Source: Oligoflexales bacterium (lineage in GTDB: Bacteria; Bdellovibrionota_B; Oligoflexia; Oligoflexales; RGVZ01). From it: 48,699 nucleotides of DNA. Below are positions 8,285 through 38,128 of this stretch, one piece after another. Position numbers and translations under genes: made by a program. The stretch lies in NCBI GenBank assembly GCA_947494335.1, contig CANLUT010000003.1:86682-135380 (forward strand), written 5' to 3'. Position 1 is the stretch's first letter; each line of letters begins with the position of its first letter. The notes below the pieces were generated by a model. That model was given only the letters and a program-made list of their open reading frames with translations, had not been told where the DNA came from and searched no databases.

Positions 8285-8455
8285 ACTTAGGAAGAAGTGC
8301 GTCGATCGAGGCCCTCTATCTGTCAGAACTAAATTTAGCTTTTTTATGAATTAATCAAAAACAATTCCCCGTAGGTTTAGGCCTGTGTCTCATATGTCTT
8401 CGGCAAGACCCGATAACCAATGAGATACGGGGATCAGCCGCGACGGGAGGATTTT

Positions 8456-11143
8456 GTGAGCCAACTTGCCAAATTAAAAGTACTCATTGTCGATGACGAA
8501 AAAGAAATTGGGCAACTGATCAAGGAAATCATAGACCCGCATTATGACGGTGTGCTTGCGTGCTCGGGCAAGGATGCTCTGAGTATTCTGAAAAAAGACG
8601 CGTCTTCAATGGTCTGCATCGTCTCAGATTATAATATGCCGGACATGAATGGAATCCAGTTGAGACAGGCGTTCCCGGAACGTTGCATGGAAATTCCTTT
8701 CATTCTGCTGTCAGGCTATATTACCAAAGAGGATGCCCTAGCCGGCTTGGATGCAAAAATTTCGGCGATGATGCCAAAACCATTTGATCCAGCAGAGCTC
8801 ATTGAGCTTGTGAAAAAGCACGCTCAAGCGCGTGAATCAACGATTCGTGAGCGCGTTATGCTTGAGCAGATTTTTATAGAAGAGGCATCTTCAATCGTCG
8901 ATGATCTTGAACCTCTAATTATGTCGCTTGAGCAGCGTCCAAACGACATTGATACGATCAACACCATTTTTCGATTGGTCCATACAATTAAAGGCTCAAG
9001 CGGTGTCCTTGAGTCTTCCCATGTGCGCATGTATGTGCACAAATACGAAGATCTCCTCTCTAAAATGAAAAGCGGAGCCGTAAAAGTCACTCCGGATGTG
9101 GTGTCAATATTGCTTCAAGGTTTTGATGTTGTTCGTAAAATGATAAACGCGCTGAAGATTGGCGAAGAGTGGACCCAGGATGTTGAAAACCTGGCTAAAA
9201 TCTTCGACTACAGTTCGACAATAAGCGTCGCTGAGTCCCCTGAGCAGGTTGCCTCCGGGGCGATTGCAGTTCCAGCGACCGAAGTTTCCAAAGAATCAGT
9301 GAATGTTCCTACGATCATGCTTGATGAGTTTATGGAGCTTTCAGGTGAGATCACAGTTATCAGGAACATGGTGAATAAACTTGTCAAAGTGATCGAGAAG
9401 GAATCACCCAGTAACAAGAATGTTCAGCATCTTGGCGAGCTTCTCGACGAAATGCATAAGATTAATTCTGGAATTCAGGGGCGATTAGTTGAAACCAGAA
9501 AGGTGCCACTTAGCAAGGTGTTTCGTCCGCTGCCAAGAACCGTAAGGGACACGGCGAAAAACTTGGGCAAAACAATTGATTTCAAGTTGGAGGGTGACCA
9601 GATACGTGTCGACTCGTCTTTGGCACAAGTGCTATCTGACTCGCTCATTCATATTGTTAGAAATTCAATCGATCACGGAATCGAAACGCGAGAAATGCGG
9701 ATTCAGCGAAAAAAGAAGCCAGAAGGTAGCTTGACCATCAGAGCCTTCGAGCGTGGTGAGGAGGTTGTTGTAGCTATCCAAGATGATGGTGGAGGCCTTG
9801 ATCCTGTCAAGATCAAAAAGAAAGCCGTTGAGAGAGGATTGTACTCCGCCAGTGACGTTGATCGCCTATCTTTAGCCAAGATTCATTCGTTGATATTTGA
9901 ATCAGGTTTTTCCACTGCCAATCAGATCACAGATGTCTCAGGACGCGGTGTCGGAATGGATATGGTTCGATCGTCCGTCCAAAAGGTCAAAGGACGGGTG
10001 GAAATCGATTCAGAATTGGGATCTGGTACGACTTTTTATCTGCATTTACCGATTCCAAAATCAGTTTTGATCATCAATTCGCTCGTTGTGGAGACATGTG
10101 GACGGGATTTTGCGATTCCTCAGGATAGTGTTGCAAGGCTTCTAAGGCTGGACGGAAAAAAGATTAGACAGTTTATTAAGGAACTACAAGGGACTGCTGT
10201 TTTGGATTACGAGGGTGAGCTGATTCCGCTCGTTGATCTCGGTGAAGCGCTGAGCCTGAGAGAGGCGAATATAAAGCGTCTACTTGGAGAAGAGGTATTG
10301 AATATTCTCATAGCGCGAACTGATGCGGCATACTTTGCTCTGTGCGTCGATCGCGTGCTCGACAGTGAGGAAATCGTTGTAAAAGTTGTTGGCAAACATA
10401 TGGAGCGTCTTAAGGTATACGCTGGCGCGACTTTTATGGGTGATGGAGGCGTTGGGCTCGTGCTCAATATCGACGGAATCGCGGAAGTTTCAGGTGTTAC
10501 AAGCATCCGACAAGCCGCAGCTGACCAGGTGACCCTAGATCAGACCACAGAGATGCCTTCAAACTTAAAGGATGTCCTGCTTTTTGATTTGTGGTGCCAC
10601 GGAGTATTTGCGATTCCGTTAACTGCAGTCCATCGACTCGAAGAAATTCAAAAATCATCGCTTCAGCAAGTTGGGGACCGAGGTGTCGTTATTTATCGCG
10701 ATCAGGTCATGCCAATTGTGGATTTGACGGACGCCCTGGGTGTTAAGGTTCAACACGAAGAGGAGCGGTCAGATCAGGTAGCTATCCCTGTTGTTGTATC
10801 AAAAATCAATGAGCGCTACGTTGGATTTGCGGTGCGCTCTATCGGAGACGTGGCGTCAATGCCGACAAGTATTGATATGCTTGTACGAGATAGAAAGCTG
10901 ATCGAAGGATCATTTGAAGTGGACGGTCGTGTTGTAGCGTTGGTCGATGTTTTTGCAACGTTGGACGCGCAGGGCATACTGAAGGCGATCGATCCTGTCA
11001 CCAATTTAAAAAATCTTTCGTACGGTGTACAAAACGATCCGGCAACTTCTACCCATAAGGCGTTAGCCGGTGATTTGGCTAAAATCGAAAAAAAGCCGGA
11101 AGAGTCCACAGCATTTGCGGGCGATGGATGGGGTCTTTTTTGA
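8456..11143 (+). CDS. Hybrid chemotaxis kinase CheA: REC-HPt-P3-P4-CheW-CheW
   Basis: This 895-residue cytoplasmic kinase has a receiver domain (about 5-125; acidic pair D13/D14, phospho-acceptor D58, Lys108). An HPt domain follows (His176 in LVHTIKGSSG), then a CheA-type dimerisation segment and the ATPase domain (N-box IVRNSIDHGIE, G1 DDGGGLDP, G2 GRGVGMDMV). Two CheW-like domains end the protein (about 535-690 and 700-840). No P2 domain is seen. I chose GTG at 8456 because GGGAGG sits five bases upstream; an ATG at 8420 would add 12 residues. It should autophosphorylate His176 and may phosphorylate its own receiver. A CCCGATAA at 8409-8416 resembles a sigma-28 -10 box, but the -35 is weak. 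It is upstream of a second kinase of related architecture. Confidence 0.9.
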   Translation: MSQLAKLKVLIVDDEKEIGQLIKEIIDPHYDGVLACSGKDALSILKKDASSMVCIVSDYNMPDMNGIQLRQAFPERCMEIPFILLSGYITKEDALAGLDAKISAMMPKPFDPAELIELVKKHAQARESTIRERVMLEQIFIEEASSIVDDLEPLIMSLEQRPNDIDTINTIFRLVHTIKGSSGVLESSHVRMYVHKYEDLLSKMKSGAVKVTPDVVSILLQGFDVVRKMINALKIGEEWTQDVENLAKIFDYSSTISVAESPEQVASGAIAVPATEVSKESVNVPTIMLDEFMELSGEITVIRNMVNKLVKVIEKESPSNKNVQHLGELLDEMHKINSGIQGRLVETRKVPLSKVFRPLPRTVRDTAKNLGKTIDFKLEGDQIRVDSSLAQVLSDSLIHIVRNSIDHGIETREMRIQRKKKPEGSLTIRAFERGEEVVVAIQDDGGGLDPVKIKKKAVERGLYSASDVDRLSLAKIHSLIFESGFSTANQITDVSGRGVGMDMVRSSVQKVKGRVEIDSELGSGTTFYLHLPIPKSVLIINSLVVETCGRDFAIPQDSVARLLRLDGKKIRQFIKELQGTAVLDYEGELIPLVDLGEALSLREANIKRLLGEEVLNILIARTDAAYFALCVDRVLDSEEIVVKVVGKHMERLKVYAGATFMGDGGVGLVLNIDGIAEVSGVTSIRQAAADQVTLDQTTEMPSNLKDVLLFDLWCHGVFAIPLTAVHRLEEIQKSSLQQVGDRGVVIYRDQVMPIVDLTDALGVKVQHEEERSDQVAIPVVVSKINERYVGFAVRSIGDVASMPTSIDMLVRDRKLIEGSFEVDGRVVALVDVFATLDAQGILKAIDPVTNLKNLSYGVQNDPATSTHKALAGDLAKIEKKPEESTAFAGDGWGLF

Positions 11144-11202
11144 CCCAGTAGTGTCATCATTTGGTGACAAAAAAATGTCGTTAAAATGCCAAATATACTG
11201 AA

Positions 11203-11232
11203 TTGACAGCCATTTCAGCGCGGCTTGATAAT
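11203..11232 (+). promoter_or_regulatory. Sigma-70-type promoter for the second CheA operon
   Basis: A perfect -35 box TTGACA (11203-11208) is followed after 18 bases by GATAAT (11227-11232), five of six matches to TATAAT. Initiation near 11239 would leave a leader of about 37 bases before the ATG at 11276. This would allow the second kinase, CheW, CheB and CheR to be expressed independently of the first kinase. Confidence 0.6.
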
Positions 11233-11275
11233 GTCTTAGGAAACTATTTTTTTTAGGGACCTTCAAGGTTCCGAC

Positions 11276-14032
11276 ATGAGCGAGGACTCTGTGGCCAGCA
11301 TCCCTAAAGAGGCATTGGCGGAATACATCGGCGAAACGCGCGAAATGTGTCAGCGCATTTCAATCGGCATGGGTTTAGTTGAAAAGAATCAACATGATGA
11401 CGAAACGCTGAACTCGATTTATCGTGACATGCATTCCATCAAAGGCGGATCTCATCTTTTTGGCTTTAAACGAATCGGTCAGCTTACTCATGCGATGGAA
11501 ACGGCACTGGATCCTGTTCGTCATAAAGAGATTCTCCTCAATCCAAAATTAGTTGACGCTCTTTATCTGGGCTTGGACGCCGTCGCCAGAATCTTGTCGC
11601 TCATTGAGATGAACGGTGATGATAGTCAGATGAGCTTGGATGAAATAGGTCCGGTAGTCCAAAAGATCGCAGACCTGACTTTTCAAGCTTTGAACTCTTC
11701 TCAAGCCACTGAAGGAAAAAACCATGACGAATCTGAGGTTTTGACAAACAGTATGCCCAAGCTTGATGACTCAATGGCACGAGACGAGCTGGAGAACGCT
11801 CCCAAGCTGATGGGCTCTAACGTAGAAATAAAAATAAATGAAACCTCAAAAGACCGAAGAGAGCAGGTTTCAGTAAAGGATGAATTTAACCTGGATCCTA
11901 GTACGGTTCGGATTCCGGTCGGGCTTCTTGATAACTTGATGAACCTTGTTGGTGAGCTGGTTTTAGTCAGAAATCAAATGCTTCAATTTAGTCAAATTCA
12001 GCGGAACGGTGAGTTTCTGAAACTCTCCCAAACGCTCAGTGTTGTGACCTCGGAAATTCAGAATGATGTGATGAAAACAAGGATGCAGCCTATTGGTCCC
12101 TTTCTTTCGAAGTTTCATAGGCTAGTACGTGATTTGGCGCGCGATCTCGACAAGAACATAGATTTTAGAATTGAGGGGGCTGACACTGAGTTGGACAAGA
12201 CTCTTATAGAGGCTGTCAAAGATCCGCTGACACACCTGATTCGTAACAGTATCGATCACGGAATTGAAACCGGCGCGGATCGCCAACGTTTAGGCAAGCA
12301 TCCCGTCGGAATGGTCAAGATCAAGTCTTACCATGAAGGTGGACACGTTATCATTGAGGTGAGTGACGATGGCTCGGGTCTTTCGCCAGTTAAAATAGCA
12401 AAGAAAGCCGTTGAACGTGGGCTTGTGCCAAGTGAGCAAGTTGGGAAAATGTCAGCTAATAGTATTCGGGCCCTAATATTTCTGCCAGGTTTTACGACGG
12501 CAGAATCAGTGACTGATATTTCAGGTCGTGGCGTTGGCATGGATGTCGTCAAGACGAACATTGAGCGCATTGGTGGACATATCAATTTGGAAAGCACAGT
12601 CGGAGCTGGGACAACGGTGAGAATGAGTATTCCACTCACAATGGCTATTATTCCTGCTCTTATGGTGTCCTCATCAGGGCAGTCATACGCTATTCCACAG
12701 TCAAAGGTTATCGAGTTAGTTCGGATTGAAGATTCAGGTCGCGACGACCAGCGCATACAGTGGCTTCAAGGTCAGGCGATGATTCGCTTGCGAGGTAAGC
12801 TCTTGTCGGTAGTTGGTTTAAGCGCGACTCTTGCTGGGAGGCCCGCGTCCGACGCCCTTAAGGTGACTCGGTTGAATAATTTGGTGATTTTGAGAAGCGA
12901 AGGCCAATCGTTTGCCTTGGCGGTCGACGCGGTTTTGGATAATTCGGACATTGTCGTAAAGCCTCTGGCTCAAGTTGTAAAGAATGTCTCGGCGTACTCT
13001 GGGGCAACCGTGATGGGAGATGGATCTGTGGTGTTGATCCTTGACGTTGACGGATTGTCCCGTTTGAGTTTGGTCGCAACCGTGGGTAAGCCTTCATCAG
13101 AGGACGATCCAAACCCTGTCGGGACGAGCATAAAACCTGACTCTGCTGAATATCTCCTCTTGGATCTTGGGGCTCCCGGATTATTTGCCGCTCCCTTGTG
13201 TTTAGTAAATCGGCTCGAGGTTTTTTCTCCGAGCGATGTTCAGTTTTCCGGTGACTTACCTGTCGTTCGCTATCGGGATACTCTGCTTCCGATTCTTTCG
13301 ATTGCTGAAAGACTTGGGTTTACGCGTTTTAGTCCAAAAGACTTATTAGGATCGGACAAATTCAGCGTTATTGTCGTTAGTAAGTCCAATAGACTTTTTG
13401 GACTTGCAGTTAAGAAAATTCTCGATGTGGTTTCAATAGATATGGATATTGACGGGGAGATATCCGATCGAAGTGGAATTCTCGGATCAGTCGTCTTCGG
13501 TAAAAATGTTATTTCGGTTATCGACGTTTTGGGTGTTATCGATAGTTTAATACACGGCTTACCTACAAGGTTGGTGGATCGGGGCTCAGAGATTGCTCCG
13601 ACTGCCACCATTTCAGCCAGCCCTAGCGCCCGAACACCGGATTCAAGGACGTTAAAGATTTTGTTAGCTGAAGACACGAGCTTCTTCCGTCGATATGTTT
13701 CAGCTTACCTTCGCTCTCTTGGTCATGAAGTTGTGGCGGCTACAAATGGAGACGATGCATTTAGACGTCTTGAAATGAGTCATCCATCAGAGTTTGACCT
13801 TGTATTGACAGATATTGAGATGCCAATTCTTGATGGATTCTCGTTGATGCACAAGATTCGTATGCGACCAGAATTTTCAGGTATCCCGGTCATTGCATTG
13901 ACAACGAAGTTTCACGACTCAGATATAAAAAAGGGTAAAGATGCGGGATTTTCTGCGTATCTTGAGAAGCTGAATGCTGAGCTTCTAGAGCAGACGATCA
14001 AGAAGTTATTTGATGTAAAGCAAGCGGTTTAA
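11276..14032 (+). CDS. cheA: Hybrid chemotaxis kinase CheA: HPt-P3-P4-CheW-CheW-REC
   Basis: This 918-residue kinase has an N-terminal HPt domain (His53 in MHSIKGGSHLFG), then an acidic linker. The dimerisation domain follows (IPVGLLDNLMNLVGELVLVRNQ near 225), then the ATPase domain (N-box LIRNSIDHGIE, G1 DDGSGLSP, G2 GRGVGMDVV). Two CheW-like domains occupy about 460-610 and 620-760. A C-terminal receiver (about 800-918) has phospho-acceptor D846 in LTDIEMP, TT in the Thr position and a Lys in LEKLN. P2 is absent. It heads a tight cluster with CheW, CheB and CheR, so it is the better candidate for the main kinase. The start has AAGG seven bases upstream. Confidence 0.92.
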   Translation: MSEDSVASIPKEALAEYIGETREMCQRISIGMGLVEKNQHDDETLNSIYRDMHSIKGGSHLFGFKRIGQLTHAMETALDPVRHKEILLNPKLVDALYLGLDAVARILSLIEMNGDDSQMSLDEIGPVVQKIADLTFQALNSSQATEGKNHDESEVLTNSMPKLDDSMARDELENAPKLMGSNVEIKINETSKDRREQVSVKDEFNLDPSTVRIPVGLLDNLMNLVGELVLVRNQMLQFSQIQRNGEFLKLSQTLSVVTSEIQNDVMKTRMQPIGPFLSKFHRLVRDLARDLDKNIDFRIEGADTELDKTLIEAVKDPLTHLIRNSIDHGIETGADRQRLGKHPVGMVKIKSYHEGGHVIIEVSDDGSGLSPVKIAKKAVERGLVPSEQVGKMSANSIRALIFLPGFTTAESVTDISGRGVGMDVVKTNIERIGGHINLESTVGAGTTVRMSIPLTMAIIPALMVSSSGQSYAIPQSKVIELVRIEDSGRDDQRIQWLQGQAMIRLRGKLLSVVGLSATLAGRPASDALKVTRLNNLVILRSEGQSFALAVDAVLDNSDIVVKPLAQVVKNVSAYSGATVMGDGSVVLILDVDGLSRLSLVATVGKPSSEDDPNPVGTSIKPDSAEYLLLDLGAPGLFAAPLCLVNRLEVFSPSDVQFSGDLPVVRYRDTLLPILSIAERLGFTRFSPKDLLGSDKFSVIVVSKSNRLFGLAVKKILDVVSIDMDIDGEISDRSGILGSVVFGKNVISVIDVLGVIDSLIHGLPTRLVDRGSEIAPTATISASPSARTPDSRTLKILLAEDTSFFRRYVSAYLRSLGHEVVAATNGDDAFRRLEMSHPSEFDLVLTDIEMPILDGFSLMHKIRMRPEFSGIPVIALTTKFHDSDIKKGKDAGFSAYLEKLNAELLEQTIKKLFDVKQAV

Positions 14033-14046
14033 ATTGGAGGTAGACA

Positions 14047-14526
14047 ATGCAGTATCAGACAGACATTGCGGCAACGGGCGGTGCAAATGTCCCCAAAATT
14101 TTGAGATTACAATACTCGACGTTTTATGTGGCTGGCCGGATGTATGGCATTGATGTCAGTCGCGTACAGGAAGTTGTTAAGCCGATACCGATGACAAAAA
14201 TTCCATTGGCAGAAAGTTTTGTGCACGGCTTGATAAATCTTCGGGGTCAGGTTGTGACTGCTGTCAGCATTCACGAGCTTTTTGGTCTCAAGGAAAAGGC
14301 TAAAGTCGACATGATGAACGTCATCTGCAAAGTTGATGGTTTCCTTGTGTCTCTATTGGTGGATGAGATAGGGGACGTTATCGAGCTTGAGACAAAGAAT
14401 TGTGAAGCTGTTCCGAACACTATTTCTTCGGCTGTTAAGCAATACATGACCGGGGTTTACAAGGTCGCTGACGATCTGATGAGTGTGATTGATGTGGACA
14501 AGATCTTTAAAGTTCTAAATGGCTAA
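14047..14526 (+). CDS. cheW: Chemotaxis adaptor protein CheW
   Basis: This 159-residue protein is a single CheW domain. It has VAGRMYGIDVSRVQEVVKP near residue 30, the hallmark FVHGLINLRGQVVTAVSIHELFGL near residue 57, and a C-terminal ISSAVKQYMTGVYKVADDLMSVIDVDKIF. CheW links receptors to the CheA kinase in cytoplasmic arrays. GGAGG lies six bases before the ATG, and the gene is only 14 bases after the kinase stop, so it belongs to the same operon. It may bind both kinases of this cluster or compete with their own built-in CheW domains. Confidence 0.95.
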   Translation: MQYQTDIAATGGANVPKILRLQYSTFYVAGRMYGIDVSRVQEVVKPIPMTKIPLAESFVHGLINLRGQVVTAVSIHELFGLKEKAKVDMMNVICKVDGFLVSLLVDEIGDVIELETKNCEAVPNTISSAVKQYMTGVYKVADDLMSVIDVDKIFKVLNG

Positions 14527-14547
14527 GCTGATTTTATTGGGGTTATT

Positions 14548-15663
14548 ATGCGACTACTTATTGTAGATGATTCCGTTGTGTTTCGTTCCCAGATTAGGAC
14601 AGCGGTGGAGTCTTCTATTGCGGTAAACTCTATCGGCACTGCCGCCAACGGGAAAATCGCTCTTCAAAAGTTGCAGCAAGAGTCCTATGACGTGATGACT
14701 TTGGATATGGAAATGCCAGAGATGAATGGCATGGAGACCCTTAAGGAAATTAGGTCACGCGGAATTCCCATCAAGGTTGTGGTATTTGCGGCCCAAAATC
14801 TTCGTGGCGCGACGTCGGCGATGGAAGCTTTCAAGCTTGGAGCGATCGATGTAGTTTCAAAGCCGGATGGTTCTAACGAGTCTTTTGATATGGCGTTACA
14901 ACATGTGCGCGATCAGTTATTGCCGATTCTGAAGGAAGTGCATCAAAAGAGTGTGAAGGCGCAACCTAAGGCGCCGATAGCAGGATCGTCGGATAGGCAT
15001 CCAGTTGCGGACGAAGTTAGCACACAAGTACCATCTGGTAATGCCGAGACGTCAAACTACCGAAAGGTTCTAGTTGAGACTTTTAGGCCAAAGATAGTTG
15101 TAGTTGGAAGCTCTACAGGCGGTCCAAATGCTCTGGAAACTTTATTTACAGGTATTCGTGCTCCTGTAACAGTGCCTATTTTGATTGTTCAACATATGCC
15201 ACCTGTGTTTACCGCAAGTCTTGCGGCTCGACTTGGAGCGATCACGGGCCTTGATTCGTTTGAAGCAAAGCATGGAGAGCCAGTAGTGACAGGGCGAATT
15301 TATGTAGCGCCGGGTGATTACCATATGGGACTTCTAAAATCTGGCGATGGCCTAATCATTAATTTGTCCCAAGGCGAGAAACGCTGCAATGTACGACCTG
15401 CTGTCGATGTGTTGTTTGAAGACGTTGCCAAGTGTATGCCTAACCAGGTGGGAGCGTTCGTATTAACTGGGATGGGTGAGGATGGAATGCTGGGGTGCAA
15501 GGCTATCAAGAACGCATTTGGAGCGGTCATGATCCAAGACAGAGAGACTTCGGTCGTTTGGGGGATGCCAGGTGCAGTGCACGCTGCTGGGGCGTTTGAT
15601 CAAATGGGTAGCCTTCAGGACTGCGCGCGAGTTCTGCAGGTTTGGTCAATGGGGGCAAGATGA
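14548..15663 (+). CDS. cheB: Chemotaxis response regulator protein-glutamate methylesterase CheB
   Basis: This 371-residue protein has a receiver domain (about 1-120; D53 in TLDMEMP, Lys in VSKPDG). A variable linker (about 125-175) leads to the methylesterase/deamidase domain. The catalytic triad is visible as S189 in GSSTGGP, H216 in VQHMPP and D312 in GMGEDGM. Phosphorylated CheB removes methyl groups from receptor glutamates, giving adaptation. It is preceded by cheW (21-base gap), and its stop overlaps the cheR start. The binding site is weak (GGGG). No CheD accompanies it. Confidence 0.95.
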   Translation: MRLLIVDDSVVFRSQIRTAVESSIAVNSIGTAANGKIALQKLQQESYDVMTLDMEMPEMNGMETLKEIRSRGIPIKVVVFAAQNLRGATSAMEAFKLGAIDVVSKPDGSNESFDMALQHVRDQLLPILKEVHQKSVKAQPKAPIAGSSDRHPVADEVSTQVPSGNAETSNYRKVLVETFRPKIVVVGSSTGGPNALETLFTGIRAPVTVPILIVQHMPPVFTASLAARLGAITGLDSFEAKHGEPVVTGRIYVAPGDYHMGLLKSGDGLIINLSQGEKRCNVRPAVDVLFEDVAKCMPNQVGAFVLTGMGEDGMLGCKAIKNAFGAVMIQDRETSVVWGMPGAVHAAGAFDQMGSLQDCARVLQVWSMGAR

Positions 15664-16550
15664 AGCTACAAAATGAATCAACAGTTACGGCTTTGTCTCC
15701 AGAGCAGATCAAATTTTTCGCCGACTATATTGAACAAAAGCTTGGAATAATCTACGCCAAAGATAATTACTATCAGCTTGAACGACGCTTAAGTGATATT
15801 GCTACGACGCTTGGCGTTGGGTCTGTCATTGAACTCTGGACCAAGGCGCAGACTGGCATTTCAGGTCAATTTCAGAGTCTTCTTCTTGATCTTTCTACTA
15901 ACAACGAGACCTCTTTCTTTCGCGATCCAGGGTTATTTAAGGCAATAGAAGAGCGGATTCTCGTTGAGCCGCGTTTTGGCGGCGACAATCCTCTGCCTCT
16001 GAGAATTTGGTGCTGCGCAACAAGTACTGGCCAGGAGGTTTACTCCATGGCCATATTATTGCATGCGTGGAAATTACAAAATCCCCGCCGCTCATTTTCT
16101 TTCTTGGCTACGGATTACTCGTTGCGTGTCCTGAAGCAGGCGGAAGAGGGAAAATACTCTCAGCTCGAAATTCAGCGGGGATTACCAGAGGCAATGATTA
16201 ATCGCTTTTTTAAGCCAGAGAAGCATGCATCAAATCCAGCTGTCGCTACAGGAAGCTGGATCGTTACGGAAGAGCTCAAGAAAGGTATCACTTACAAGCA
16301 GCAAAACCTTCTCGATGACTTTGGTGGCATTGGGCCTTTTGAAATCGTGCTATGTCGCAACGTGTTGATTTATCAAAACGTTGAAAATAAAAGACGCATA
16401 ATTGCCGAAATTGCCCGCCGCCTTGTGCCCGGTGGATATTTGGTTCTGGGAGCAGCAGAAAGTCTCATGGGACTAAGCGAAGACTTTGAGATGCGTCAAA
16501 TTGATCGGGCTGTCGTCTATCAACGTAAGCAGGATTTGAAGACACGCTAA
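15660..16550 (+). CDS. cheR: Chemotaxis protein-glutamate O-methyltransferase CheR
   Basis: This 296-residue SAM-dependent methyltransferase has an N-terminal helical domain. It carries TNNETSFFRDP near residue 80, a SAM-binding loop CCATSTGQEVYSMAILL (usually STGEEPYS) and the C-terminal IVLCRNVLIYQNVENK followed by LVPGGYLVLGAAESL. It adds methyl groups to receptor glutamates, opposing CheB. I chose ATG at 15660: it overlaps the cheB stop as ATGA and has GGGGG just upstream, while a TTG at 15642 would add six unconserved residues. It ends the chemosensory operon, facing a convergent gene 24 bases away. Confidence 0.94.
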   Translation: MKLQNESTVTALSPEQIKFFADYIEQKLGIIYAKDNYYQLERRLSDIATTLGVGSVIELWTKAQTGISGQFQSLLLDLSTNNETSFFRDPGLFKAIEERILVEPRFGGDNPLPLRIWCCATSTGQEVYSMAILLHAWKLQNPRRSFSFLATDYSLRVLKQAEEGKYSQLEIQRGLPEAMINRFFKPEKHASNPAVATGSWIVTEELKKGITYKQQNLLDDFGGIGPFEIVLCRNVLIYQNVENKRRIIAEIARRLVPGGYLVLGAAESLMGLSEDFEMRQIDRAVVYQRKQDLKTR

Positions 16551-33649: not shown

Positions 33650-33687
33650 AAAAACCGGCGCTTGATTATCCAAGCGCCGGTTTTTTT
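33650..33687. terminator. Strong bidirectional rho-independent terminator
   Basis: A perfect 15-bp stem (33650-33664 pairs with 33671-33685) with a 6-base loop has A5 on the left and T7 on the right. The stop codon of the convergent lipoprotein gene (33686-33688) lies in the T tract. Confidence 0.92.
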
Positions 33688-34804
33688 ATTTTAGTCGCTC
33701 AAGCTCTTTATTGATGATCTCGAGGTTTTCTTTGACGGTGTCAAGCGTCGAAGCTTCTGGATACTTTGTAATGGCAGTTTCAAGGTAGTTCTTGGCTTTT
33801 TGCAGATGTGACTTTTTGCCAGTGGATTCTGGCATGGATGAACTAGAACGGTACTGACTCGCAGCTTGTCGCCTCAGATCTTGGACGGCGCGATTGGCCC
33901 AACCCTTCAGGCTTTCTTGTGCAGAGGCATAGTGATCGGTGCCTTGGGGAACTTTTCTAGCCTCAACCACAGCCTTTTCGTAGTCCTCTCTCCCCGCGTA
34001 CTCGGTTGCTTTTGTCATGATTTGATTAGCAACAGAGTTTTCTTCCGGCGACGCGGTGATTGTCGGCGCTTGCGCCTCTGGTGATGGGCTTTGTGAGGAC
34101 AGGGTGCCTTCGGCTCCGACAGGCTGGACATCCATACCCATCTTGCGAGCCAAGTCACCCCATGATTGGGTCTCGATTTTTAGTGCGTTGAGGAGGCTTT
34201 GTAAAAATAATGGGCTATTCCCATCAAACCGACTGGCATCCAGTGTCAAATTGTAAATGGCGTAAGAACGGAGATGAGGATTGGTGGAGATTGCCGTGAT
34301 GAGATCAACTCCTTTTTCCCGGCAACGTGTTTCGAGTATGAGTTGCGGTTCAATTTTTTTCGATCCTTGATCAATAACGGTTGATGAGTTCTCTGCATTT
34401 TGACCAGCTGCCATGTCCACTTCGCGGAACGTTGACCTATGGCCACCGACCGGCGTAACAATGTCCCGTAAGATTCCAACCACAACAGCAGCCTCATGGA
34501 TGGTTCCCGGTTGGGGATTTGCTGGAAAAGCGAGAAACTGTTGGCGATCTTTTTCCGTAAAGTCCTGGTTGGGAGAGGAAACTTTTTCAAAAAAACCGGC
34601 ATAGTCCAATTCGTTAGTGCGAGTTTCGGACACGGCTTCCATTTTAACTGGCTTAACATCTTCAGTTTTAGCGGCTGGAGCTGGATGACTGATAGGCTTA
34701 CGTCTTCTGGCAGGTTCCTGCTGTTGGCTTCCTGTCGTGGCACAGGCGGCAAGCAATGAAACACATGTTATTGCCGACAAATAAGTTCCCATCAGTTTCA
34801 ACAT
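33686..34804 (-). CDS. Lipoprotein with helical repeat-like C-terminus, unknown function
   Basis: This 372-residue protein has a lipoprotein signal (lipobox LAAC, Cys21). A Pro/Ala/Lys-rich spacer (about 25-65) follows. A middle domain is mixed alpha/beta (with VVVGILRDIVTPVGG near 108), and after a second low-complexity linker the C-terminal half (about 255-372) is helical and TPR-like (ATEYAGREDYEKAVVEARK; KAKNYLETAITKYPEAS). I know no family for it. I chose ATG 34804, since AAGGAG is six bases upstream; a GTG one codon earlier fits less well. It follows the FadL-like gene on the same strand by 14 bases, so the two probably form an operon. It should sit in the periplasm, anchored to a membrane. 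Confidence 0.65.
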   Translation of the reverse strand: MLKLMGTYLSAITCVSLLAACATTGSQQQEPARRRKPISHPAPAAKTEDVKPVKMEAVSETRTNELDYAGFFEKVSSPNQDFTEKDRQQFLAFPANPQPGTIHEAAVVVGILRDIVTPVGGHRSTFREVDMAAGQNAENSSTVIDQGSKKIEPQLILETRCREKGVDLITAISTNPHLRSYAIYNLTLDASRFDGNSPLFLQSLLNALKIETQSWGDLARKMGMDVQPVGAEGTLSSQSPSPEAQAPTITASPEENSVANQIMTKATEYAGREDYEKAVVEARKVPQGTDHYASAQESLKGWANRAVQDLRRQAASQYRSSSSMPESTGKKSHLQKAKNYLETAITKYPEASTLDTVKENLEIINKELERLK

Positions 34805-34818
34805 CACAATCTCCTTCT

Positions 34819-36045
34819 TTATAGCATAACGCTTAGCGATGCTATGTATCGTCGATCCTCTACGCGCTTCAGCGTATTGCTGACATCCACCGCATAGCTG
34901 GCAAACTCAATGCTTGCCACAGATGTATTCATCAGTATGCCCCACGTTACGAAACCTTGATTTGCGCCAATTTGAACTGCAAATGGAGCGCGCTCCAGGG
35001 GATTTCCCGAAAAAATTTCTACACCACCGTGGAGCATCTTTGCCAAGTCTATTCCAGGTAGGCCGTAGTAGGATGAACCAGTTCCAAAATACAAGTTTTG
35101 GATATCAGCTGAAAATCTGATTCCGTAATCTCGCGCCACGCGGGGGCTGATGGACATTCCAATGCGAGTATCTGTTGGATCAATCACAGATAACGCTTCG
35201 GGATTGCCTTTTGAACCCGTGTAAAGGGTGCCGCAAATTTTTTGACGTACCTCGGTGTATGGATTCAAATAGTCGTCGACGCATCCGGTGGGAAGGTTTC
35301 TGATCGCTATGCCGACCGTCGGAAACCAGAAGTCTGCCAGAGTGAATAAAAATCCGAAATCAGCTCCCAGACCCAAGCCGCGATTACTGTCTTTTCTGAT
35401 GCGTTCAATCAAGGCAGTTCGACTTTTTAATTCGCTACTGCTAATCGTATCCTCGTAAGCGTAACGGTAGGTCGGTCGAAACGTTAAACCCATGCTTAGA
35501 CGATTGGAGAAATTTGTATAGCTGTAACCGAAGTTCGCACCGACGTCTGTGATTGCACTGACGCGTGCATCGGTTGGGGTGTCCTTGTCGACGTAAATGT
35601 GCATGATAGAGTTACTAAACACACCAAGGCCGGCAGGCTGATTCTTATCAGCTTCAAACAGGATGACTGGAGATGCCGCTGCTCGCGCATAAAAAGGTTT
35701 TGCACTGCTAATGTCTGATGTCGCAATGACGTCTGCGATACCCGAGCTGGTAGAGCCTTGGATGGCTCCGTAAAAGCTTCTGCTTTCGGCGTTCAGTCCA
35801 AGAATCAAATTGGGAAATTTTAAAATATGAACATGACTACGACTGCGTGCTTTTCTTACGCGAGCAATACCGGCGGGGTTGGTCCAAAAGGCCGACTCGT
35901 CATTGGCCACTGCTGTGAAGGCGCCACCCAGTCCCATAGCCCTTGGTGTTGGATAGCCTTCGGCGACTTCCACGCCAAATGCGTAGCTCCCGCATGTTGA
36001 TAGCAATGCAGCAATAGCGGCGGATTTAACTGCCCAGCTAAGCAT
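34819..36045 (-). CDS. Outer-membrane beta-barrel protein, FadL/PorV-like (UPF0164-type)
   Basis: This 408-residue protein has a signal peptide (about 1-23) and then EGYPTPRAMGLGGAFTAVANDESAFWTNPAGIARV, the conserved N-terminal plug-like motif of FadL/PorV/PorQ-type barrels. The rest is a run of amphipathic beta strands with aromatic ends; it has one Cys pair (C250, C268) and closes with YIASLSVML. It may carry hydrophobic molecules or act as a scaffold. I chose ATG 36045, since the TTG four codons earlier has no better site. It is upstream of, and 14 bases from, the lipoprotein gene at 33686. Confidence 0.72.
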   Translation of the reverse strand: MLSWAVKSAAIAALLSTCGSYAFGVEVAEGYPTPRAMGLGGAFTAVANDESAFWTNPAGIARVRKARSRSHVHILKFPNLILGLNAESRSFYGAIQGSTSSGIADVIATSDISSAKPFYARAAASPVILFEADKNQPAGLGVFSNSIMHIYVDKDTPTDARVSAITDVGANFGYSYTNFSNRLSMGLTFRPTYRYAYEDTISSSELKSRTALIERIRKDSNRGLGLGADFGFLFTLADFWFPTVGIAIRNLPTGCVDDYLNPYTEVRQKICGTLYTGSKGNPEALSVIDPTDTRIGMSISPRVARDYGIRFSADIQNLYFGTGSSYYGLPGIDLAKMLHGGVEIFSGNPLERAPFAVQIGANQGFVTWGILMNTSVASIEFASYAVDVSNTLKRVEDRRYIASLSVML

Positions 36046-36124
36046 CCTGAACCCCAACGGCCTGAAGTAAGCTTTGATCGTCCCTTCATGATGAAGGAAA
36101 TGGGGGTGGATGGCAAGTAAAGTA

Positions 36125-36769
36125 TTATTTTGACAGGAGAGTTTGCGTTAAAGTCTCAAGGTCCTCTTTTTCTTTGAGGATTTTAACCAGCTCTTCAGAT
36201 CGACTGAGAAGGGTTTCCTGCAATGACTTCACCTGATCGTCCTTTGCAGCAATCATAGCGTCCTTCATCTCAATGATGGCATCGGTCATCTGTGAGAGGC
36301 GATTCATGGAGTCTTGTGTCAGTTTTAGAATCTCTCGATTCTCATCCTTGGCCAAGCTTAAATGATCGATCAAAAGCGCGAGTTCCTGGCTGTGTATGCG
36401 GTCCTGAGAGTCAATAACAACTGGTAGGGGCGTGGCCTGGTAGTTTAGTGCGGATATGGATGCTGCTGGCTGACTTGTTAGTGTCTTGGGCGGAGGGGGT
36501 AAGCCCTCCTCGGCAAAAATATTGCTCATATCAGTATAGACAAAAACCTTGCCGCGCAGGGTGCGCGCCACGAGCTTGCCGTTACGGATTCTTCGCCAAA
36601 TCTCATCATGCGAGATTCCCAAGGATCTTGCAGCCTCCGACAGTTCAAGACCATCAATGTCGCGATCCGTTGTTTGTGGACCGACATAAAGTTCGTCGTC
36701 TCGCATTAAAAGATGAGTCCCAGGAGCAGAGGTGCTCGACTCGCTCGCAAAATGTTCGTGGTCGGTCAT
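36125..36769 (-). CDS. DNA-binding helix-turn-helix protein with long coiled coil
   Basis: This 214-residue protein has an excisionase/MerR-type winged helix-turn-helix (about 40-80: LELSEAARSLGISHDEIWRRIRNGKLVARTLRGKVFVYTD). A Pro-rich linker follows, then a long coiled coil (about 125-214) rich in Glu, Lys and Leu. HTH-coiled-coil proteins of this kind often have regulatory or partition-like roles, but no function is known here. The ATG has a poor ribosome site. It is transcribed towards the FadL-like gene with an 80-base gap and could be the first gene of that unit. Confidence 0.7.
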   Translation of the reverse strand: MTDHEHFASESSTSAPGTHLLMRDDELYVGPQTTDRDIDGLELSEAARSLGISHDEIWRRIRNGKLVARTLRGKVFVYTDMSNIFAEEGLPPPPKTLTSQPAASISALNYQATPLPVVIDSQDRIHSQELALLIDHLSLAKDENREILKLTQDSMNRLSQMTDAIIEMKDAMIAAKDDQVKSLQETLLSRSEELVKILKEKEDLETLTQTLLSK

Positions 36770-36892: not shown

Positions 36893-38128
36893 TTAAGCTG
36901 GTCTGGCCAATTTGTGGGCATTGCCAGTTCTTCCCAATCGCTGCTGGGTTTCAGACAGCTTTCGTCTAACTTTATCAAAACCCGGATCTATCTGATATGC
37001 CAACTGAAATGTTGCTACTGCATCTGCAACCTTTCCCTTGAGCTCCAACGCAAGCCCCAAATTGAACAAAACGCGCGGATCATTTGGATCGATTGAAAGG
37101 GCGAGCCTGTAACGATCGATGCCCTTATCAATGAAGCTTTGCCTCACGTACGCCAGGCCTAAAGAGTTCAAAGTTGAAACGTCGGATTGTTCGAGGTCCA
37201 ATGCTTTCTCCAAGTTCAAGGCGGCTTTTTCAAAGTCTTTAGTTTTCAGATAAAGATGACCAAGGCCTTTGTATGCCGCCGCTAAGGTCGGAGATAACTT
37301 TAGAGTCAGCTTAAAATACTCTTCAGCATCTGCAAAACGGCGAAGTTCCATCTGCGCGGCGGCAATGATCAATGGATATTTTGGATTTTCGGGACTCAAG
37401 TTATGCAGAATCTTGGCACCTTGGACGACTCCGGCGTGGTCTTTCTGCTCTTCAGATATTTTTAGTAACTGCTTGTAGCCGTCGATATAGTCGGGATTGT
37501 TTGCCACAGCTTGCTTGAAGCATGAAATTGCCTTTTCCGGATTTTGTCGAAGAAGTTCTATTTTGCCAAGTCCGCAGGTGGCTCTCGCAGACTGTGGCTT
37601 CATAGTCAACGCTTCGGTAAACAGTGCTTCAGCAACCCATAGCTCTTTTCTTTCAAGATAATCTTCCGCTCGCTCCAGTAATAACTGAAGATGATCTGGA
37701 TTTTTCTCGTATGAGAGGATGAGCCGTAACTGATCACAAAAGTCCTGATACGAAAATGGCTTAAGTAAATAACCTGATATACCGCCTTCGCTGGCAAGCA
37801 CAATATCGGCTTTTTGATTTTCCATTGTCATGAGTAAGTACGGTGTTGCCCGATAACGCGGGTCTTTGCGGAACTCTCGACAAATTTCTAGACCATTCTT
37901 ATCCGGCAGTTGCCATTCGGCTATAAATAATCCTATTTTTCGCGTGCGCGCAGCCGCTCGGCCTTCTTCAGCAGAGGACACGAATAGTGCTTGTTCGCAT
38001 TGCAAACGATTGAGGAAATTTTGCATGCTAACTCGAAAATGCATCCGCGGTTCGATGATTAAGATCCATCGCTCGCCCAAAAAATCTCGAAGATCCTGCC
38101 AAAGTGCCAAAGTCGTTGTCCTTTCCAT
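36893..38128 (-). CDS. Receiver-TPR protein with Asp-to-Glu receiver (atypical response regulator)
   Basis: This 411-residue protein joins an N-terminal receiver (about 20-135) to seven or more TPR repeats (about 145-400). The phospho-acceptor position is Glu71 (IAEWQLPDKNG) and the acidic pair is Glu26-Pro27 (ILIIEP), while Thr101 and Lys123 (LLKPF) remain. It therefore looks locked in an active-like or non-phosphorylated state. The TPR part (for example AEEYFKLTLKLSPTLAAAYKGLGHLYL) should bind proteins. A possible sigma-28 promoter lies at 38160-38187, suggesting a motility link. It is divergent from the ABC exporter genes. Confidence 0.85.
   Translation of the reverse strand: MERTTTLALWQDLRDFLGERWILIIEPRMHFRVSMQNFLNRLQCEQALFVSSAEEGRAAARTRKIGLFIAEWQLPDKNGLEICREFRKDPRYRATPYLLMTMENQKADIVLASEGGISGYLLKPFSYQDFCDQLRLILSYEKNPDHLQLLLERAEDYLERKELWVAEALFTEALTMKPQSARATCGLGKIELLRQNPEKAISCFKQAVANNPDYIDGYKQLLKISEEQKDHAGVVQGAKILHNLSPENPKYPLIIAAAQMELRRFADAEEYFKLTLKLSPTLAAAYKGLGHLYLKTKDFEKAALNLEKALDLEQSDVSTLNSLGLAYVRQSFIDKGIDRYRLALSIDPNDPRVLFNLGLALELKGKVADAVATFQLAYQIDPGFDKVRRKLSETQQRLGRTGNAHKLARPA

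Follow-up and report, generated by a model that had tools for sequence, protein, structure and literature searches.

Why should a receiver domain be kept when its phospho-acceptor aspartate is gone, and what might it do at the head of a chain of tetratricopeptide repeats (TPRs)? The question is raised by a gene in a 48,699-nucleotide stretch of DNA from an Oligoflexales bacterium (hereafter the window), in which a sequence-only reading had placed a response regulator–TPR protein at positions 36893 to 38128. That placement is borne out by Pfam, with the minus strand as the coding one: the interval is filled exactly by a single open reading frame (P0001) of 411 codons plus stop, running from an ATG start at 38128 down to 36893, and its plus-strand reading is interrupted by stops. 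Response_reg matches residues 22–134 (37727..38065, minus strand) with 59.3 bits against a cut-off of 30.2, so that the domain belongs to PF00072, and TPR models match the remainder; Pfam and the helix pairs of a structure model together delimit about seven TPRs and a C-terminal helix at residues 146–407 (36908..37693, minus strand). When residues 1–143 were aligned with phmmer, "iaewqlpdkng" paired with "ITDWNMPEMNG" of H. pylori CheY, and codon 71 (37916..37918, minus strand, counted from the start codon), a Glu, therefore lies at the position of the phospho-acceptor, Asp57 of CheY. In the same alignment Glu26-Pro27 (codons 26–27, 38048..38053, minus strand, likewise counted) replaces the DD pair, and Thr101 and Lys123 coincide with the conserved Thr and Lys, all as the sequence-only reading had it. 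Acidity is retained at Glu26; the real loss of a metal ligand is Pro27.

These residues set the domain apart from a CheY-type receiver, which has an Asp acceptor and an acidic metal pair. An aspartate-less receiver (ALR) has a PF00072 domain without the acceptor Asp, and a pseudo-receiver (PsR) lacks at least one of DD, D, T, and K; Glu in place of the acceptor and Pro in place of the second acid, both common to 16 of 16 members of the window's clade, put the protein in both classes. To judge from its sequence, the receiver is a textbook aspartate-less or pseudo-receiver carrying the commonest substitution. In the available text of the published surveys, Glu is the most frequent replacement of the Asp (26% of ALRs; PMC4395418), the first acid is kept in 65% of ALRs, and the second position is acidic in 29% of ALRs (PMC4395418) and about 20% of PsRs; the coupling pair of Thr/Ser and Tyr is kept entire in 47% of PsRs. 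The 411-residue protein thus shares with ALRs and PsRs the Glu replacement, the retained first acid, and the lost second one, but differs by its TPR solenoid output and has both members of the coupling pair. The main texts of the ALR and PsR papers (PMC4395418, PMC12632262) make no mention of TPRs or tetratricopeptides, and among the titles and abstract beginnings of the open-access literature we found neither a pseudo-receiver–TPR fusion nor this family. The TPR fusion, along with the family-wide and varied loss of phosphorylation residues described below, is the newer part of the picture.

Is the Glu more than an accident of one strain? A Glu fixed across orthologues had been proposed as the sign of selection for a non-phosphorylated receiver, and Asp in close orthologues as the sign of the contrary. 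A search of 56 relatives' genomes gave 14 aligned genes of one clade (clade I), the window's included, whose other members are 34–66% identical to the window protein. Glu71 occupies all 14 rows of this alignment and, with two receiver-only fragments of split genes, all 16 clade I proteins that include the site; Asp, looked for among these 16, is found in none. The codons are GAA (10) and GAG (6), and never one of the Asp codons that lie a single base change away. A strain change is therefore dismissed. Asp and Glu both occur in 16 of 29 mostly acidic columns, and column 71 is not among the mixed ones; Glu71 appears conserved as if under selection, as the proposed check had anticipated. Around it, Pro27, Trp72, and Lys123 are invariant in the 14 rows (Lys123 in 16/16), position 101 is Ser or Thr in 16/16, and Tyr120, three residues before the Lys, is present in 15/16.

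That the acceptor and one metal ligand are gone could also be read as decay, with a receiver heading to loss and a Glu fixed by drift. We consider this most improbable: Glu71, Pro27, Trp72, and Lys123 stay invariant at the level of divergence just given, 18 of the 120 receiver columns are invariant, the matched regions of the 14 aligned genes are free of stops, and mean conservation in clade I is higher in the receiver columns (0.66) than in the TPR columns (0.58), the two parts being about equally conserved in three sister clades. Since conservation of the receiver extends to the Thr/Ser–Tyr pair, the domain does not appear to be decaying.

The explanation that we favor, and hold to be rather probable, is that of a scaffold independent of phosphorylation, in which the α3–α4 face of the receiver and the groove of the TPRs bind partners. 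The receiver would keep the fold of CheY and, because its acceptor is Glu71 and its second metal ligand Pro27, is not expected to be phosphorylated by the usual route. Glu71, the acid at 26, Ser/Thr101, and Lys123 would instead probably form a fixed, salt-bridged pocket that holds one conformation; in ALR structures the first acid is described as contacting the Lys (PMC4395418). Instead of a kinase, it would be the supply of partners, expression, or the occupancy of the TPRs that regulates the protein. The retained Thr–Tyr coupling residues would be compatible, too, with a switch that is still mobile.

The same residues have been taken to indicate constitutive activity by phospho-mimicry, in which Glu71 would reach Ser/Thr101 and Lys123 and lock the receiver permanently in a state like that of phosphorylated CheY. 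The near-complete retention of Ser/Thr101, Tyr120, and Lys123 in clade I agrees with this, as does the partial mimicry of phospho-Asp by Glu in many response regulators (PMC12632262). The residue two positions after the Lys, on the other hand, is Phe in 14/14 aligned rows, and Phe there biases CheY toward the inactive state (PMC12632262); the exchange of Asp for Glu alone is often insufficient, CheY being a named case (PMC4395418); and in related clades the site is Ser, Gly, Thr, or Ala, or is an Asp unaccompanied by the Thr, so that an active mimic is not the common state of the family and Glu is one of several endpoints. We therefore regard constitutive activity by phospho-mimicry as doubtful. 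ChxR of Chlamydia resembles the window protein in having Glu for Asp and in working without phosphorylation (PMC4395418); it differs in its DNA-binding output, and changing its Glu to Asp or Ala is insufficient to abolish DNA binding (PMC4395418).

The structure models agree with a scaffold made of a CheY-like domain and a solenoid. The full-length model (mean pLDDT 88, pTM 0.65, 14 sequences) has a (βα)5 domain whose last helix, residues 127–142, leads directly into 14 paired helices (about seven TPRs) and a C-terminal helix; the receiver-only model (pLDDT 89, pTM 0.85, 28 sequences) finds its best fold match in a CheY chain (Z 20.6, rmsd 1.6 Å over 129 aligned residues). CheY of H. pylori is also the best PDB sequence match of the receiver (E 2.6e-16), and the likeness extends to the Trp after the acceptor position and the KPF motif; the contrast lies in the missing acceptor Asp, the missing DD pair, and the TPR output. 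A choice between active and inactive conformations from the model was abandoned, activated and unactivated CheY structures matching with tied Z and neither being favored.

Where would partners bind? On the α3–β4–α4 side of the clade I receiver, Arg84, Glu103, Asn104, Asp108, Ala112, and Glu114 are conserved, Glu114 being invariant throughout clades I–IV, and α5 is the receiver helix with the lowest conservation (0.48). Arg84 in α3 and Asn104, Asp108, and Glu114 in α4 are invariant, at positions that we take to be exposed, as in CheY, and to mark the α3–α4 side. Within the receiver of the full-length model, confidence is lowest in α4 (residues 105–112, pLDDT below 50). Helix α4 is well conserved also in clades III and IV, though not in clade II (0.58), and the α3–α4 face is therefore not special to the members with Glu. 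We infer that this side, through the six residues named, binds a partner protein, and that a second partner lies along a groove of the TPR solenoid, which follows directly on α5; the invariant Asn321 and Asn356 form part of this groove. These two asparagines we read, as an assumption of ours, as part of an Asn ladder like that of O-GlcNAc transferase.

The closest precedent is found in Myxococcus xanthus, where the pseudo-receiver of FrzS binds the TPR protein SgmX via its α3β4α4 surface (PMC12632262, PMC11580455). There, too, a pseudo-receiver works with TPRs, and the corresponding side is conserved in the present family; by this analogy the α3–α4 side would bind either a partner or the protein's own TPRs. 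The architectures are nevertheless distinct: FrzS has Ala at the acceptor site (PMC4395418) and combines its receiver with a coiled coil, the TPRs belonging to the separate protein SgmX (PMC11580455), whereas the window protein is a single chain whose C-terminal part is TPR and not coiled coil. A polarity module of MglB type was also considered; the Robl_LC7 domain (PF03259) matched in 0/58 class genomes, in a search that recovered 3/14 controls.

The window protein belongs to a much wider set. A profile of the 14 clade I proteins was run against 58 genomes, which represent the class and at the same time the phylum; loci found at E 1e-40 were taken, and 72 proteins passed E 1e-20, one of them a longer receiver–TPR protein from the window's own genome. 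At these thresholds a clade I gene is present in 16/58 genomes; it is missing from one member of the window's genus, with a genome 87% complete, and from the four genomes of the neighboring genus. A tree of 67 proteins, rooted on five longer receiver–TPR proteins (491–555 residues) drawn from a greater number of this kind, shows five groups with different residues at the acceptor site: Glu throughout group I, the window's clade (16/16); 15 Glu and 1 Asp in group II, from Silvanigrella-type genomes (n = 16); 16 Asp, 2 Ser, and 1 Thr in group III (n = 19); 6 Gly and 5 Ser in group IV (n = 11); and 2 Ser and 1 Ala in group V (n = 3). The full set of five phosphorylation residues (both acids of the DD pair, D, T, and K) occurs in none of the 65 family proteins of about 400 residues and in four of the five longer outgroup proteins, the fifth missing only the second acid. 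Clade III keeps the Lys in 19/19, but its Thr position holds Met, Leu, or Ile and its Tyr position Ile or Val. These calls assume ungapped spacing, and in several members a Thr or Ser precedes the Thr position by one residue, which makes clade III the group of least certain status. Clade I is its opposite, having lost the Asp and retained the Ser/Thr and, with one exception, the Tyr. Among the Silvanigrella-type paralogues, seven combine a Glu acceptor with Met or Ile for the conserved Lys (L075, L083, L084, L085, L087, L088, L097).

A single origin of the Glu was also considered: one clade of all 28 Glu rows is rejected by the AU test (p 5.7e-5), a test picked after inspection of the tree, with membership defined by the residue and the five active-site columns excluded. 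Glu therefore either arose twice or was lost in between. We tentatively suggest, as a possibility that goes beyond the single protein, an old and duplicated Oligoflexia receiver–TPR family that abandoned phosphorylation and is switched by partner binding in cis or in trans, a built-in version of FrzS–SgmX. Glu would then have been fixed in two groups that apparently do not form one clade, and on other branches the site would have been broken by a change to Gly or Ser, or the Asp retained while Thr and Tyr were seemingly lost. The literature names the switching of bacterial pseudo-receivers on and off as an open question (PMC12632262). One architecture, with a mostly canonical outgroup and clades that lose different residues, lends itself to swaps between paralogues (E71D, D71E, T101M), which could show which features replace phosphorylation and would make the family a useful test set for pseudo-receiver switching. 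Relatives beyond the class were sought by scanning genome contigs with two peptide patterns: of the 14 loci returned, 13 were clade I genes already found, and the remaining one, in a Terriglobia MAG, is a weak match to the receiver alone (26%, E 7e-7).

Does the gene neighborhood name a partner? Within the genus the same six genes lie downstream in all neighborhoods read (5/5, one starting inside the receiver–TPR gene), the first three in the same direction and with weak Pfam matches. In the window these three, on the minus strand and with that same synteny, are a gene at 36125..36769 with a weak HTH_17 match below cut-off, which adjoins the receiver–TPR gene; a second at 34819..36057, with weak UPF0164 and TraF_2 matches below cut-off; and a third at 33686..34807, likely a lipoprotein on reading alone. 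Immediately beyond, at 33650–33685, a terminator-like hairpin of 15 pairs separates two convergent genes. Outside the genus the neighbors of the clade I gene differ. A conserved operon was thus rejected, the downstream genes being conserved within the genus only, and in the neighborhoods read we found no partner, phenotype, or operon conserved past it.

Clade III genes adjoin a set of CAAX-protease, SpoU-methylase, and aminotransferase genes in 7/10 neighborhoods read, and the window's genome has the same set, with the flanking methylase and aminotransferase kept and the receiver–TPR gene absent (L165:3250-4200). A relic of an Asp-clade gene at this empty site was looked for and not counted, there being only a 21-residue match with E 0.03. 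In a Silvanigrella-type contig (L049:2509-4414) the clade I gene begins where the SpoU-methylase gene ends and, if the first possible start is used, overlaps it; this contig suggests, short of proof, that clades I and III may have begun at the SpoU-methylase place. In five genomes a PilT-family gene is also present some 4–6 kb from the Asp-clade (III) paralogue. The intervening genes, typed by Pfam on tested representatives, are mostly housekeeping (SpoU-type methylase, aminotransferase, CAAX protease, peptidase, trypsin-like); proximity to PilT is therefore a matter of neighborhood only, and a type IV pilus link was dropped.

The sequence-only reading had further placed the protein either downstream of the chemosensory kinases or independent of them. 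CheA is encoded in 16/16 genomes with a clade I gene versus 28/42 without (one-sided Fisher p = 0.005, uncorrected), and FliM (15/16 versus 30/42) and PilT (16/16 versus 34/42) lean likewise (p 0.06 each); CheA and PilT without a clade I gene are found together in 21 genomes. Twelve of the 14 genomes without CheA are smaller than 3 Mb, and kinship and genome size may therefore explain much of the co-occurrence. What stands of the downstream placement is the co-occurrence with CheA, a weak lead that is confounded by kinship and small genomes and is not evidence of a pathway; the che cluster of the window itself ends about 20 kb from the gene, and a general, not che-specific, reading of the clade I and III neighborhoods noticed no che operon. 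In that cluster (8420–16550) two CheA-like proteins stand in tandem, as read from the frames with CheA dimerisation and receiver matches, and the first of them carries a receiver at its N-terminus. The frames that follow the pair are, we assume, CheW-, CheB-, and CheR-like.

The co-occurrence with CheA has also been weighed for a role as kinase decoy or modulator, in which the pseudo-receiver would dock on a histidine kinase or on CheA and compete with true receivers. A neighbor of this kind exists in one genome of the genus (G001, L040:8433-9944), where, on the same strand, the orthologue is preceded by a HisKA/HATPase kinase gene at a distance of 38 bases. This kinase has no homologue in the window or in 12 other loci at the thresholds used, a comparison in which some of the 12 loci end short upstream and Pfam typing covers selected neighbors only. 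As the link to CheA is confounded, with FliM and PilT leaning the same way, we think a decoy quite unlikely and retain the phosphorylation-independent scaffold as the preferred reading.

Receivers of this kind are not unusual in number. Among 32 Response_reg matches in the window's genome the aligned acceptor column has 29 Asp, 2 Glu, and 1 Asn; published rates, as far as the available text gives them, are about 6% to 13% of bacterial or prokaryotic receivers for PsRs and about 4% for ALRs (PMC12632262), and the frequency in this genome is therefore ordinary. The two Glu receivers are the 411-residue protein and C1:442117 (L153:799-1986), a protein of 395 residues with a Glu acceptor (IELDF) and acids at the DD positions, which the window protein does not match at E 1e-5. 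The Asn acceptor belongs to a weak, partial receiver match at C8:7534 (L154:948-1718). The same genome also encodes a 507-residue paralogue (G000:C2:546919, L031) that likewise has an N-terminal receiver followed by TPRs but, unlike the 411-residue protein, keeps all five phosphorylation residues.
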